Assembly: GCF_900091625.1 (NCBI RefSeq)
Contig: NZ_FMIC01000002.1
Location: 2,666,001-2,730,000, forward strand
Direction of reading: 5' to 3'
DNA length: 64,000 bases
DNA from: Micromonospora peucetia
GTDB lineage: Bacteria > Actinomycetota > Actinomycetes > Mycobacteriales > Micromonosporaceae
Shown here: one piece after another, positions 30,003 to 50,561 of the stretch
How positions within the stretch are numbered: the stretch's first letter is position 1
Layout: each line of letters begins with the position of its first letter
Position numbers and translations under genes: made by a program
The notes under the pieces: generated by a model
Seen by the model: only the letters and a program-made list of their open reading frames with translations
Databases searched by the model: none
What the model was told of the DNA's origin: nothing

Positions 30003-30079
30003 CCCGCGATCTTGCATTTTCGGCCCCTTGATTGCGCAAATTGCCGCTTATGTCGGGGCTAGAAGTGCAAGATCGCGGG
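30003..30079. repeat. Palindromic element, copy 1
   Basis: Arms 30003-30027 and 30055-30079 (starting CCCGCGATCTTGCA and ending TGCAAGATCGCGGG) form a 25-position stem with three G-U pairs and one mismatch around a 27-nt loop. The core matches the copy at 50467-50561 in arm sequence and loop length. Confidence 0.8.
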
Positions 30080-30204
30080 TGACGGGGTGACGGGGTGACG
30101 GGGTGACGGGGTGACGGGGTGACGGGGTGACGGGGTGACGGGGTGACGGGGTGACGGGGTGACGGGGTGACGGGGTGACGGGGTGACGGGGTGACGGGGT
30201 GACG
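30077..30204. repeat. 8-bp VNTR, 16 perfect copies
   Basis: GGGTGACG is repeated 16 times without change, starting in the last three bases of the palindromic element and ending 25 bp before the methyltransferase stop. Perfect copies imply recent slippage and likely length variation between strains. Confidence 0.9.
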
Positions 30205-30228
30205 GGGCGAGCGGGCGGGGGAGCTGGG

Positions 30229-31029
30229 TCAGGGGGTGGGGGAGATCTGGGGCCAGGGGAGGGTGAGTTCGCCGTGGCGCCAGCGGCGGGGACCGTCCAG
30301 GATCGGCCAGCCCGCCTCGCGGACGGTGGACACCGTGCGTAGCCAGCGCTGGCGGGGGCCGTACGGGGCGTAGCCGGCGGCGGCCTGCCAGGCGTCGTCG
30401 AGGGCGCGGATCAACTCGTGGATCCGCTCACCGGGGACGTTGCGGTGGATCAGTGCCTTGGGCAGCCGTTCGGCCAGCTCCGCCGGGGTGCCCAGGGTGG
30501 TGAGCTTCGCGGCCAGGGTGAGCGTACGGGGGCCGTCGGCGTCGATCAGCAGCCAGCCGCCGAGCCGCCCCAACTCGTCGCAGGTGCCCTCGACCAGCAG
30601 CCCGCCCGGGGCCAGCCCGGCGGTCATCGTGCGCCAGGCGTCGGCGACCTCGTGCTCGTCGTACTGGCGTAGGACGTTGAAGGCGCGGACCAGGGCGGGA
30701 CGGAGCCCGGCCAGCTCGAACCCGCCCCGGGCGAAGGTGAGCCGGGGCGGGTCGGCGGACGGCTGGGCGGCGGCGACGCGTACCGGATCGATCTCCAGCC
30801 CGACGACCCGCACGTCGGGGCGGACCGCGGCGGCCAGCCGGGCGCGCAGCTCGACGGCGGTCACGGGGCTGGCGCCGTAGCCGAGGTCCACCACCAGCGG
30901 GTCGGCCGCCGCGCGCAGCGCCGTTCCGCAGGTCTCGACGATCCAGTTGTCCACCCGGCGGAGCCGGTTGGGGTTCGTCGTGCCCCGGGTCACCACGCCG
31001 AGCGGCCGGTGCCGCCCCGTGCCCGCCAT
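30229..31029 (-). CDS. Class I SAM-dependent methyltransferase
   Basis: The product is 266 residues from ATG 31029. Motif I is visible as VVDLGYGASPVTAVELRARL and motif II as VVGLEIDPVRVAAAQ; FNVLRQYDEHEVADAWRTMT and LAPGGLLVEGTCDELG follow. The C-terminal part (GYAPYGPRQRWLRTV, GPRRWRHGELTLPW) is specific to an uncharacterised actinobacterial group. The substrate is unknown. It follows the SDR gene on the same strand with 23 nt between. Confidence 0.85.
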   Translation of the reverse strand: MAGTGRHRPLGVVTRGTTNPNRLRRVDNWIVETCGTALRAAADPLVVDLGYGASPVTAVELRARLAAAVRPDVRVVGLEIDPVRVAAAQPSADPPRLTFARGGFELAGLRPALVRAFNVLRQYDEHEVADAWRTMTAGLAPGGLLVEGTCDELGRLGGWLLIDADGPRTLTLAAKLTTLGTPAELAERLPKALIHRNVPGERIHELIRALDDAWQAAAGYAPYGPRQRWLRTVSTVREAGWPILDGPRRWRHGELTLPWPQISPTP

Positions 31030-31052
31030 CGTCCGCGACCGTCCGGACCGGG

Positions 31053-48708: not shown

Positions 48709-49506
48709 ATGCCAACTAGCTATGTGGGGCGGGACGGCGGGCGGATCGCCTACGAGGTGCACGGGCAGGGGTCGCTCGTCGTCCTCTCGCACGGCATGGG
48801 GGAGAACCGCCGCTCGTTCCGGCACCTGGTCCCGTTGCTCGTCGCGGCCGGGCACCGGGTGGCGTCGGTGGACGTCCGGGGGCACGGCGAGTCCACCGCC
48901 GGCTGGCCGTCGTACGCCCCGGCCGAGGTCGGCGCCGACCTGCTCGCGGTGGTCCGCGACCTCGGCGACGGACCGGCCACCCTGGTCGGCAACTCGTCCA
49001 GCGCCGCGGCCGTGGTCTTCGCCGCCGCCGACGCCCCCGCGCTCGTCAACGGCATCGTCCAGATCGGCCCGTTCGTCAGGCAGCCGAAGCTCAACCCGTT
49101 CATGCGGCTGGCCCTGGCCGCCGTGCTGCGCAGCCCCCGGCTGTTCGGGCTGTTCCACCGCACGCTCTTCCCGTGCGCCCGGCCGGCCGACGACGCGGCG
49201 TACCGCAGGGCGATGGTCGCCACCCTGCGCGAGCCCGGCCGGATGGCGGCGACCCGTGGCCTGAACGTGCCGGCCGACCCGCACTGGACCACCCGCGCCC
49301 GCGAGGTCCGGCAGCCGGTGCTGGTGCTGATGGGCGCGCAGGACCCGGACTTCCCCGACCCGGGCGCCGAGGCACGGGCGGCCCGCCGGCTCTTCGCCAC
49401 CGCCGAGGCCCGGATGATCGACGACTCCGGCCACTACCCGCACGCCGACCAGCCGGCGCGTACCGCCGCCCAGCTCACCGAGTTCCTGGCGGTCACCGGT
49501 GCCTAG
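48709..49506 (+). CDS. Alpha/beta hydrolase
   Basis: The product is 265 residues from ATG 48709. It has LVVLSHGMGENRRSF (oxyanion), DVRGHGESTAG, the elbow VGNSSSAAA (Ser nucleophile in a G-N-S-S-S variant), LVLMGAQDPDFPD (acid) and DDSGHYPHADQP (His). It is probably an esterase-like enzyme or a haloperoxidase-type hydrolase. It is the first gene of an operon with a TetR regulator and a DUF2568 membrane protein, which suggests a role in handling a hydrophobic small molecule. Confidence 0.87.
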   Translation: MPTSYVGRDGGRIAYEVHGQGSLVVLSHGMGENRRSFRHLVPLLVAAGHRVASVDVRGHGESTAGWPSYAPAEVGADLLAVVRDLGDGPATLVGNSSSAAAVVFAAADAPALVNGIVQIGPFVRQPKLNPFMRLALAAVLRSPRLFGLFHRTLFPCARPADDAAYRRAMVATLREPGRMAATRGLNVPADPHWTTRAREVRQPVLVLMGAQDPDFPDPGAEARAARRLFATAEARMIDDSGHYPHADQPARTAAQLTEFLAVTGA

Positions 49507-50077
49507 GGTCGGGCTCAACCAGCGGACCGTGGTGCGCGAGGCAGCCCGGCTCGCCGACGAGGTCGGCGCCGACCAGCTCACCCTCGCCGCGCTGGCACAC
49601 CGGCTCGGCGTCGCGCTGCCCAGCCTCTACAAGCACGTCCGAGGGGCCGAGGCGCTCGCCCAGAAGCTCTCCGCGCTGGCCACCGCCGAGCTTGCCGACG
49701 AACTGACCACCGCCGCCGCGGGCCGGGCCGGCGGGGACGCGCTACGGGCCGTCGCCGCCGCCTACCGGTCGTACGCCCACCGCCACCCCGGTCGCTATCC
49801 GACCACCCAGCGGGTGCCGGACCCGACCGACCCGGAGCACGTCGCCGCCGGTGAACGGGCCGTCGGGGCGATCCGGTCCACCCTGCGCGGCTACGGGTTC
49901 GACGGCGACGACACCATCGACGCGACCCGGATGCTGCGCAGCACCCTGCACGGATTCGTCTCGCTGGAGGCTGCCGGCGGGTTCGGCCTGCCCCGCGCCG
50001 TCGACGCCTCCTTCGCACACCTGGTCGCCGCGCTGGACGGCGCGTTCCGGTCCTGGCCCCGAGATTCGGACCGATGA
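49499..50077 (+). CDS. TetR-family regulator
   Basis: The product is 192 residues from GTG 49499, overlapping the hydrolase stop by 8 nt. The HTH is TVVREAARLADEVGADQLTL and LAHRLGVALPSLYKHVRGAE; the ligand-binding part (AVAAAYRSYAHRHPGRYPTT, MLRSTLHGFVSLEAAGGFGL) is of the TetR_C_33 (WHG) type. It most likely represses its own operon through GCTAA-N5-TTAGC at 48685. Confidence 0.9.
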   Translation: MPRVGLNQRTVVREAARLADEVGADQLTLAALAHRLGVALPSLYKHVRGAEALAQKLSALATAELADELTTAAAGRAGGDALRAVAAAYRSYAHRHPGRYPTTQRVPDPTDPEHVAAGERAVGAIRSTLRGYGFDGDDTIDATRMLRSTLHGFVSLEAAGGFGLPRAVDASFAHLVAALDGAFRSWPRDSDR

Positions 50078-50409
50078 AGGCCCTGGGACTGCTGCTGCTC
50101 TTCCTGCTGGAAGTCGCCGTGCTCGTCGTCGGTGGCTGGTGGGGCTGGACCCTCGACGTGGTGACGCCCGTCCGGGTGGGCGCCGCCGTCGCCGTACCGC
50201 TGCTGCTGGCCGCGCTCTGGGGTGTCCTCGGTTCGCCGAAGGCCCACGTGTCGCTGCCACCAGCGGGCAAGCACGCGTTCCAGGCCACCTGGTTCGTGGC
50301 CGGCGGCGGAATGCTCGCCCTACGCGGACTGCCACTGCTCGGGCTCGCCCTGGTCTTGACCTGGGCACTCACCATCACCCTGCTCCACCTGACCCCCCGC
50401 CCCGCCTAA
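50074..50409 (+). CDS. DUF2568 (YrdB-type) membrane protein
   Basis: The product is 111 residues from ATG 50074, overlapping the TetR stop as ATGA. It has four hydrophobic segments (LGLLLLFLLEVAVLVVGGWW, GAAVAVPLLLAALWGVLG, WFVAGGGMLALRGLPLLGLA, LTWALTITLLHL) and the typical GSPKAHVSLPP loop of DUF2568. The function is unknown. It is the last gene of the operon. Confidence 0.85.
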   Translation: MKALGLLLLFLLEVAVLVVGGWWGWTLDVVTPVRVGAAVAVPLLLAALWGVLGSPKAHVSLPPAGKHAFQATWFVAGGGMLALRGLPLLGLALVLTWALTITLLHLTPRPA

Positions 50410-50466
50410 CCCGCCCCGCCCCGCCCCCACCCCGTGCTGCCCTGCCCCACCCCGTGCTGCCTTGCG

Positions 50467-50561
50467 CCGCCCGTCCCCGCGATCTTGCACTTTCGGCCCT
50501 GACGAAAGGGGCATTGTGCACATCTTGAGGGCGCAAAGTGCAAGATCGCGGGGACGGGCGG
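50467..50561. repeat. Palindromic element, copy 2
   Basis: The 27-bp perfect arms run from 50467 (CCGCCCGTCCCCGCGATC...) and to 50561. After a 2-nt mismatch a further 5 bp pair, leaving a 27-nt loop (50501-50527). From GATC to GATC the geometry is the same as in copy 1 at 30003-30079. It follows the TetR operon by 57 nt. Confidence 0.85.

Follow-up and report, generated by a model that had tools for sequence, protein, structure and literature searches.

Several described systems resemble, each in part, the palindromes analysed in this study. Integron attC sites are short elements behind genes, in which paired boxes enclose an unpaired spacer and the centre is variable. REP and BIME sequences are palindromic, present in many copies, dispersed and found mainly between convergent and codirectional genes, with REPs measuring 20-40 bp (excerpt of PMC3733652). 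BldC protomers bind 9-bp direct repeats of the form AATTXXXX(C) (excerpt of PMC5859096), as at the whiI and smeA-sffA promoters of Streptomyces. For transcript ends, the available portion of PMC8269248 reports that only 182 of 1,427 ends in S. clavuligerus are structured with a U-rich tract, that 353 of the 1,427 mapped ends are structured without one, and that bidirectional ends occur; the small share of U-rich structured ends makes the separation of convergent transcription in GC-rich genomes a live question.

The window, a stretch of 64,000 nucleotides from Micromonospora peucetia, contains two copies of an element designated family A. By computation, family A is a dispersed family of constant geometry, with conserved boxes, a 9-bp register, placement at gene ends, skewed flanks and flank pairing specific to each locus. 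With a palindrome of nearly fixed length at about 100 places, mostly at the ends of genes, that carries conserved boxes and a BldC-like repeat array, the idea that proteins provide the answer to the question above can be tested directly. The literature searched, which took in few subscription papers, yielded no description of family A.

Two copies in the window and their family

Both palindromes reported by a first-pass annotation were recovered by an inverted-repeat search, with stems extended outward, at 30003-30079 and 50467-50561. In each copy the span from GATC to GATC is 67 nt (30008-30074 and 50481-50547) with the 20-27-20 layout already described, and the arm core occurs four times at up to three mismatches, compared with 0.05 expected in shuffles. 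Both elements have exact arms. Oriented by its central repeats, copy 1 (30008..30074) lies on the - strand, where its profile match scores 59.1 bits against 32.4 bits on the + strand; copy 2 (50481..50547) lies on the + strand, with 61 bits against 43.1 bits on the - strand. The copies are therefore oppositely oriented, and the earlier statement that their loops differ completely was wrong: 16 of 29 loop positions agree when one copy is turned, compared with 6 of 29 unturned. Combined, these results confirm the earlier observation of the palindromes in part.

Copy 1 stands between two convergent called genes, one at 28448..29548 on the + strand, which we take to be murB, and one at 30229..31029 on the - strand, presumably encoding a SAM-dependent methyltransferase. 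Its outer locus-specific stem, CCCGC/GCGGG, extends the inverted repeat to 30003..30079. Copy 2 follows a small called gene (50074..50409, + strand) that ends 71 bp upstream, and its outer locus-specific stem of 14 bp extends the inverted repeat to 50467..50561, with a perfect arm of 27 bp. The tandem repeat noted directly after each copy was also found by Tandem Repeats Finder, as a G-rich array of 16.4 copies of the 8-bp unit GGGTGACG (30077-30207, + strand) after copy 1, and as 4.1 copies of the 10-bp unit GGGCGGTGTG (50556-50596) within a G-rich stretch (50548..50599, + strand) after copy 2. A C-rich stretch, read from the sequence, occupies the interval from the upstream gene to copy 2 (50410..50480, + strand). 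Rfam gave no match over the gathering score in the whole window. Additionally, a protein search identified the 69-aa gene at 51304-51513 as a widespread excisionase-family wHTH.

The proposal of a dispersed family with conserved geometry held, and further copies are numerous: a pattern search found 94 copies with perfect outer arms in the genome (reversed-pattern control, 0), and a profile lists 103 loci. A pattern with a gap of 25-45 matched nothing because the actual gap is 49. Length is nearly fixed, at 67 bp in 106 and 68 bp in 52 of 161 distinct copies. A sample of 200 genomes from the same bacterial family included 46 with matches, the copy number ranging from 0 to 161 per genome, and the earlier mention of similar palindromes in Micromonospora was borne out by all 80 of the 80 named records among the matches listed.

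Within the genome the 103 loci are dispersed, with a median gap of 37 kb. Such a distribution would suit an anchor for a nucleoid protein, gene ends being merely tolerated places, and BldC has been likened to Fis as an architectural protein (excerpt of PMC6428758). Against this stand the absence of replication-strand bias along the chromosome (P 0.76; 103 loci), the position of 84 of the 103 loci within the first 4 Mb of the contig, and two near relatives without a match, and we consider a chromosome-architecture site very unlikely.

Sequence boxes and pairing in the arms

Within the arms, GATCTTGCA(C/G)TT and GCCC are conserved at the level of sequence, as two boxes separated by a triplet that varies freely. 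Across the 11 orthologous pairs shared with one other genome (G273), the GCCC box shows identity at 87 of its 88 positions, and positions 10-12, which were not part of the search pattern, at 58 of 66; agreement is lower in the triplets (32 of 66) and in the centre (184 of 319). Variants in the two halves of the element are independent of each other.

The first-pass annotation had read three G-U pairs among the four arm differences of copy 1 as a sign of selection for an RNA hairpin. The pairs are present in RNA of the + strand only; in RNA of the - strand they are A-C mismatches (folding energies of -47.8 and -42.0 kcal/mol, respectively), and copy 2 has simple mismatches at both of its arm differences. 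Of 41 copies, 23 lack pairing at 13/55, 26 at 14/54 and 27 at 15/53. In the same 41 copies neither the percentage paired (466 of 500 shuffles at least as high as observed) nor covariation (439 of 500) exceeded shuffles. Compensation among variants was likewise not above shuffles at positions 10-19 in 52 copies of the genome itself (P 0.94) and in 105 copies taken from elsewhere in the genus (P 0.998), nor at positions 10-20 in 37 copies of another lineage (P 0.20). In all of these tests substitutions fail to preserve pairing inside the element, so that selection for an RNA hairpin is unsupported there, and RNA selection inside the element was rejected on the pair counts. The earlier interpretation as a whole is partly supported, and the pattern of conservation, as read from sequence, favours a DNA site bound by protein over an RNA hairpin.

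Central 9-bp repeats and BldC

The loop contains three 9-bp direct repeats, about RCRWANSSS, and its A/T autocorrelation peaks at lag 9 (0.712 vs 0.542 shuffled). The same register is seen in 105 copies of 67 nt, from which the repeats were assigned to element positions 22-48, corresponding to 30027..30053 (- strand) in copy 1 and 50502..50528 (+ strand) in copy 2. Like the BldC sites, as far as the excerpted source describes them, family A has 9-bp direct repeats in which an A/T core is followed by four bases and a C. The native whiI site matches the two-repeat profile of family A (P 0.022) and the profile of family C (P 0.002), the latter built from 26 loops chosen for a GACAAA-like motif out of 51 matches; AATTCGGAC compared with the repeat profile gave P 0.001-0.005, and of the four smeA repeats one does not fit the profile and two fit weakly. 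In one genome (G123), some family C loops include CAATTCGGACA, which in the published excerpt forms the core of the whiI site. The repeats conform to AATT N4 (C), a loose motif that makes this a likeness rather than proof. Unlike family A, whose repeats lie within palindromic arms and mostly at gene ends, the BldC sites in the excerpted descriptions are located at promoters.

The BldC encoded in the genome can be aligned with 6AMA along 67 of 69 residues, and the residues named as BldC contacts in the excerpt of PMC5859096, Lys26, Arg30 and His46, are all present in it. Scores over the cut-off were obtained for BldC in 14 of the 14 genomes tested, including relatives without family A, and therefore BldC alone cannot explain the distribution of the family. 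From the motif likeness and the presence of the gene, we infer a binder of the BldC/excisionase type. In its most specific form, which we regard as doubtful, a BldC-type winged-helix protein, developmental or architectural, might form short filaments on about 100 gene-end palindromic caps and, with an arm-binding partner, turn them into two-way transcription borders. If true, gene ends would be punctuated by a system whose arms and central repeats can be swapped as modules (families A, B and C) and which sister species gain and lose in concert.

Gene ends, flanks and copy number

Placement was assigned for 154 copies from several genomes: the neighbouring genes are convergent for 88, codirectional for 56 and divergent for 7, and the remaining 3 copies are inside called genes. 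Family-wide, the left flank has 59% C and 21% G and the right flank 58% G and 22% C, in agreement with the C-rich and G-rich stretches around copy 2. Outside the element only, the two flanks of one locus pair with each other better than flanks taken from different loci do, which makes a hairpin of the whole gene-end region possible. Outer stems are longer than chance (3.73 bp vs 2.81 bp; 160 copies vs shuffles), with at least 8 bp in 12 of the 160 copies compared with 2.7 expected, and the flanks adjoining the element are complementary to each other rather than direct repeats.

We tentatively favour, at somewhat below even probability, a two-way gene-end module consisting of a C-rich tract, the palindrome as a putative protein site, and a G-rich tract. 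The element would be a double-stranded DNA site for proteins, mostly at gene ends, and the centre of a bidirectional transcription-end module. Each half would present the box GATCTTGCA(C/G)TT, NNN and GCCC, probably read independently of the other half, and small winged-helix proteins of the BldC/excisionase type would occupy the three 9-bp repeats between the boxes in head-to-tail order. The bound complex may halt RNA polymerase, or mark a border for it, whichever side it comes from. On both strands the element is preceded by C-rich and followed by G-rich sequence, and an incoming RNA would run through a stretch rich in C and poor in G before it reaches the base of a long GC-rich stem. In favour of a protein site stand the nearly fixed length, the conserved GCCC box, the missing covariation in the arms, the lag-9 periodicity, the placement, the skewed flanks and the likeness to BldC sites. 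Element direction, which is unrelated to gene direction, also counts against it, as does flank pairing specific to each locus, which is not expected from protein binding alone.

That pairing speaks for the alternative that the element acts at the RNA level, terminating transcription or stopping exonucleases at mRNA 3' ends, with selection keeping the pairing. All four strands of copies 1 and 2 have folds far more stable than those of shuffles (z -7.0 to -11.2), the whole gene-end region of one locus is predicted to fold into a single long hairpin (-116.5 kcal/mol, z -5.0), and the long locus-specific outer stems and the position of most copies behind genes agree with this. Like the U-tract-less hairpin ends of GC-rich bacteria (I-shaped or Rho-linked), family A combines gene-end placement and a stable stem with the lack of a U-tract, and the C at -30 and G at -10 of S. 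clavuligerus ends (excerpt of PMC8269248) have a parallel in its C-rich 5' and G-rich 3' sides. Unlike those ends, as described in that excerpt, family A has sequence-conserved boxes, no covariation in the element stem, where three inner pairs are mostly unpaired, and a centre of 29 nt, long compared with the 4-8 optimal for E. coli intrinsic terminators (same source). A T-run terminator is also opposed by zero terminator-like sites at either copy, and the GCCC box is kept despite tolerated mismatch next to it. An RNA hairpin as the selected function appears unlikely.

Copy number, which differs so widely between related genomes and, in most of the cases tested, without the transposase that explains REPs elsewhere, raises the alternative of a non-autonomous mobile element. 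The boxes would be terminal inverted repeats read by a trans-acting recombinase or transposase, the 9-bp repeats would bind an excisionase-like helper, and selection would have removed insertions elsewhere, leaving copies behind genes. This agrees with the range of copy numbers, the independent variants of the two halves, two relatives (93-95% in compared genes) without a match to the arm pattern, and one site that carries class A, B, C-like or nothing, depending on species; two copies can also stand side by side (locus L023), and 2 of the 11 orthologous copies are turned round. Against it, the copies in the genome are old (inner-part identity median 0.56, best pair 0.86), the 11 partner sites in G273 descend with the locus, nine of them in the same direction, and 326 half-sites in the sequence segments examined comprised only 7 solitary ones and no larger, autonomous version. 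Segments of G298 and G263 held no family A remnants at E <= 1. The Y1 transposase (PF01797) is missing in 28 of 36 genomes, among them those with 161, 136 and 125 copies, and the one Y1 gene of the genome itself lies more than 250 kb from the nearest listed copy; plasmids gave no match to copy 2 and viral contigs none to the full pattern. On balance we regard mobility as somewhat unlikely. As a general cause, RAYT mobilisation was rejected on the occurrence of PF01797 in only 8 of 36 genomes, and a phage origin was rejected on the zero strict-pattern matches in viral contigs, where a looser pattern did list matches.

Compared with named classes, and first with MITEs, family A shows inverted repeats, with no clean empty site among those compared that would define a target-site duplication. 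It shares with REP/BIME sequences the palindromic, multicopy and dispersed character and the placement, 144 of the 154 placed copies being convergent or codirectional. Unlike REPs as described in the excerpted source, it measures 67-68 bp, carries conserved unpaired triplets, an inner 9-bp array and C-rich/G-rich flanks, comes in most genomes tested without the Y1 transposase of RAYT-associated REPs, and is without a GTAG or CGTC tag; the T needed for CGTC next to GATC occurs on the left in 7 and on the right in 6 of 52 copies. Family A is dispersed singly, unlike attC cassette arrays, and the attC core motif was not apparent by eye; the boxes, spacer, variable centre and gene-end position resemble attC, as a resemblance only.

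Distribution of family A

The dispersed GATC-to-GATC palindrome, family A, is represented in the window by two 67-nt copies, copy 1 at 30008-30074 and copy 2 at 50481-50547, in agreement with the first-pass annotation, and the arm core was matched four times there at up to three mismatches (0.05 expected). That annotation also held the two loops to be completely different, which was not borne out: the copies are oppositely oriented, and reversing one of them raises the agreement between the loops from 6 to 16 of 29 positions. Its expectation of a larger family was supported by 94 occurrences of GATCTTGCA-N35-65-TGCAAGATC in the 7.37-Mb genome, as against zero for the reversed-pattern control, and 41 copies were made into a sequence profile, which listed at least 103 distinct loci in this genome. 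Among the first 52 copies listed, 41 measured 67 nt and 11 measured 68 nt.

Within a sample of the bacterial family, matches were found in 46 of 200 genomes and 10 of 44 genera, with a maximum of 161 per genome, although some single matches may be chance. When a looser pattern was run on 296 genomes of the phylum, 29 had matches: 105 fell in this genome, 13 in G003, a relative (with the GATCATGGAG variant), and 2 in a genome of another family (GATCATGCA palindromes); the one to three matches in each of 26 others, often coding, were taken for chance as judged from the listed sequences. The core occurred in 85 named stretches, and all 80 listed were from Micromonospora. Family A appears concentrated towards the start of contig C2 (7.27 Mb): among the matches listed, 84 of the 103 loci fall within its first 4 Mb. 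At one fetched locus (L023:4001-4161), two copies with different loops lie 27 bp apart behind one gene.

Anatomy and pairing

Forty-one copies of 67 nt were oriented and aligned, giving the order GATCTTGCA (demanded by the search pattern), (C/G)TT, a variable triplet, GCCC, a 29-nt centre, GGGC, a second variable triplet and the mirror box. The bases of the centre are non-random: approximately R-C-R-W-A-N-S-S-S appears three times, in the same columns in 64 copies from other genomes, forming 9-bp repeats at element positions 22-30, 31-39 and 40-48 (the third weaker), and lag 9 gives the strongest correlation of A/T occupancy (0.712 vs. 0.542 shuffled, 105 copies). The triplets show some preference, with few A at positions 14 and 15; in other genomes TCT on the left and CGA on the right predominate, a combination that mismatches one pair.

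The first-pass annotation had proposed an RNA hairpin kept by selection, and had called for a search for compensatory changes. Inside the element these did not exceed shuffles in the 41 copies (paired cells 88.2% vs. 89.1%, covariation 0.030 vs. 0.039), and among the pairs predicted by RNAalifold none had both partners changed. Pairs 16-19 were unpaired in only 2 of 164 cells, pair 10 in 10 of 41 copies, and pairs 13-15 in 23, 26 and 27 of 41 copies. Shuffling whole right arms revealed no excess compensation at positions 10-19 (P 0.94 for the 52 own copies, 0.998 for 105 others) or, in a second lineage from which 37 copies were typed, at positions 10-20 (P 0.20). The symmetry of the stem thus seems to come from conservation of the same boxes in either half, and not from compensation of earlier changes. 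Beyond GATC, however, a flank pairs better with its partner at the same locus than with flanks from other loci (outer stem 3.73 vs. 2.81 bp; flank duplex -52.0 vs. -48.5 kcal/mol), and outer stems of at least 8 bp occur in 12 of 160 copies (2.7 expected), so that pairing matters or arises outside the element, not inside; template switching and selection for the stem base are both possible sources. The flank pairing speaks in part for the RNA hairpin, an unlikely reading on balance.

Gene context, conservation and turnover

With gene calls from a codon-score script, 154 of 161 distinct copies from several genomes could be placed: 88 lie between convergent genes, 56 (37 plus 19) between codirectional and 7 between divergent ones, and 3 within called genes. 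Among the first 52 own copies, 21 placements were codirectional, 3 divergent and 27 convergent, with one further convergent copy marked as overlapping a gene call. Convergent gaps made up 8 of 85 gaps of at least 100 bp in a 204-kb own segment; the resulting enrichment of convergent placements is approximate, because the element itself lengthens gaps. Element direction is unrelated to gene direction. The left flank is 59% C and 21% G and the right 58% G and 22% C; the same skew is shared by family B (6 copies, of which 3 figure under A as well), family C (4) and, with a weaker left side, family D (2). In E (3), F (4) and G (1) it is slight or absent.

In another genome, G273, 18 copies were examined (15 fetched from 34 matches, three in segments), of which 11 had a same-place partner among the fetched own loci; six of the remainder had no flank there and one matched at the left flank only. 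Across these 11 orthologous pairs, GCCC identity was 87/88 (ungapped 86/88) and positions 1-12 agreed at 255/264, with positions 1-9 favoured by the search pattern and positions 10-12, outside it, at 58/66. Triplets agreed at 32/66, the centre at 184/319 (0.57 vs. 0.45 for non-orthologous copies) and flanking DNA at 86-95%. Orientation was kept in 9 of 11 pairs, with window copy 1 among the two turned. The best supported reading, advanced tentatively, is that family A may be a protein-bound DNA palindrome at the centre of a two-way gene-end module; an architecture site is far less probable.

A family A pattern made slightly stricter had no match in the near relatives G298 and G271; GATCATG palindromes of the B and C classes number 33 and 29 there and 9 in this genome. 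For the copy 1 site, 151 genomes were searched and the best 30 loci, including the own one, were fetched; 22 of the 29 others had both flanking genes, seven one-flank loci being left out of the count. An A, B or C-like element is present at nine of the 22 (degenerate in L072), and 13 are element-free with gaps of 12-62 bp. Another site holds A in this genome, C in G298 and neither in G263, and family A copies were found neither whole nor decayed in the G298 and G263 segments. Such concerted loss may mean that family A relies on a trans-acting factor or that another class has taken its place.

Comparison with REPs and BldC sites

REPs share the genomic placement of family A (PMC3733652), whereas length, tag and transposase are all discordant. 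Y1_Tnp matches occurred in 8 of 36 genomes and in none of those with 161, 136 and 125 copies; the single match in this genome lies more than 250 kb from the nearest family A copy among the matches listed. A mobile element, which would be compatible with having a function, is a rather unlikely alternative to a protein-bound palindrome.

Regarding possible binders, each BldC protomer is reported to occupy one 9-bp direct repeat, AATTXXXX(C) (PMC5859096), a register common to the family A centre; a later paper gives AATT(N3-4)(C/G) and cautions that the sites are not predictable from sequence (PMC6428758). Scored with the family A repeat profile, the optimised site reached P 0.0002, AATTCGGAC 0.001-0.005 and the native whiI site (22 bp) 0.022; of the four smeA repeats, one agrees with the profile (0.004-0.010), another two do so weakly (0.03-0.09) and the last does not fit. 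With 26 family C loops selected from genome G123 as the reference, whiI reached P 0.002. In all 14 genomes tested, BldC genes score above the curated cut-off, and the own BldC aligned over 67 of 69 residues to 6AMA and 6AMK, BldC structures according to PMC11963761. BldC is at most one partner, because relatives without family A have it too. Near copy 2, a 69-aa excisionase-family winged-helix gene (51304-51513), conserved in many Micromonosporaceae, matched the BldC model weakly (24.3 bits, below the cut-off of 77); its product is a possible candidate binder of such sites.

Further repeats were observed. A 59-bp inverted repeat (ACGGGTGGAACACCATGG..., 29860-29918) lies 90 bp from copy 1, and a palindrome with a similar GTGGAAC arm occurs elsewhere in this genome (segment 144867-144917). 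A 47-bp perfect-arm hairpin at 36504-36550 (GATCTTGGACACTTTCC..., GATC-ended class D) has a diverged counterpart in G298 (L118:6466-6512), and the palindrome at 35625-35689 (GCGTTGATCATGAGTTTGGCGG...CCCATGATCAACGC) is family C-like. Two 61-bp palindromes (GGTGATCAGGACGCCATGGAC...) stand 334 bp apart in this genome (L139:6011-6071 and 6345-6405), with relatives in G298 and G263. A 69-bp palindrome, CTTTGCTCTGCA...TGCAGAGCAAAG, was seen in three relatives (L116:11457-11525, L129:18021-18089, L147:10633-10701), approximating family A in length and lacking GATC ends and the C/G flank switch. Family C of G123 carries at least three loop types (GACAAAnCGGAC, GGAGATCGA, CGACACGCCG) on the same GATCATGA(A/G)GTTG arms, as if arms and centres were swappable modules. 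Lastly, the 20-bp unit CCGCGCCGCCGGCTGCCGCC is perfectly repeated in tandem at 60451-60601 (7.6 copies).
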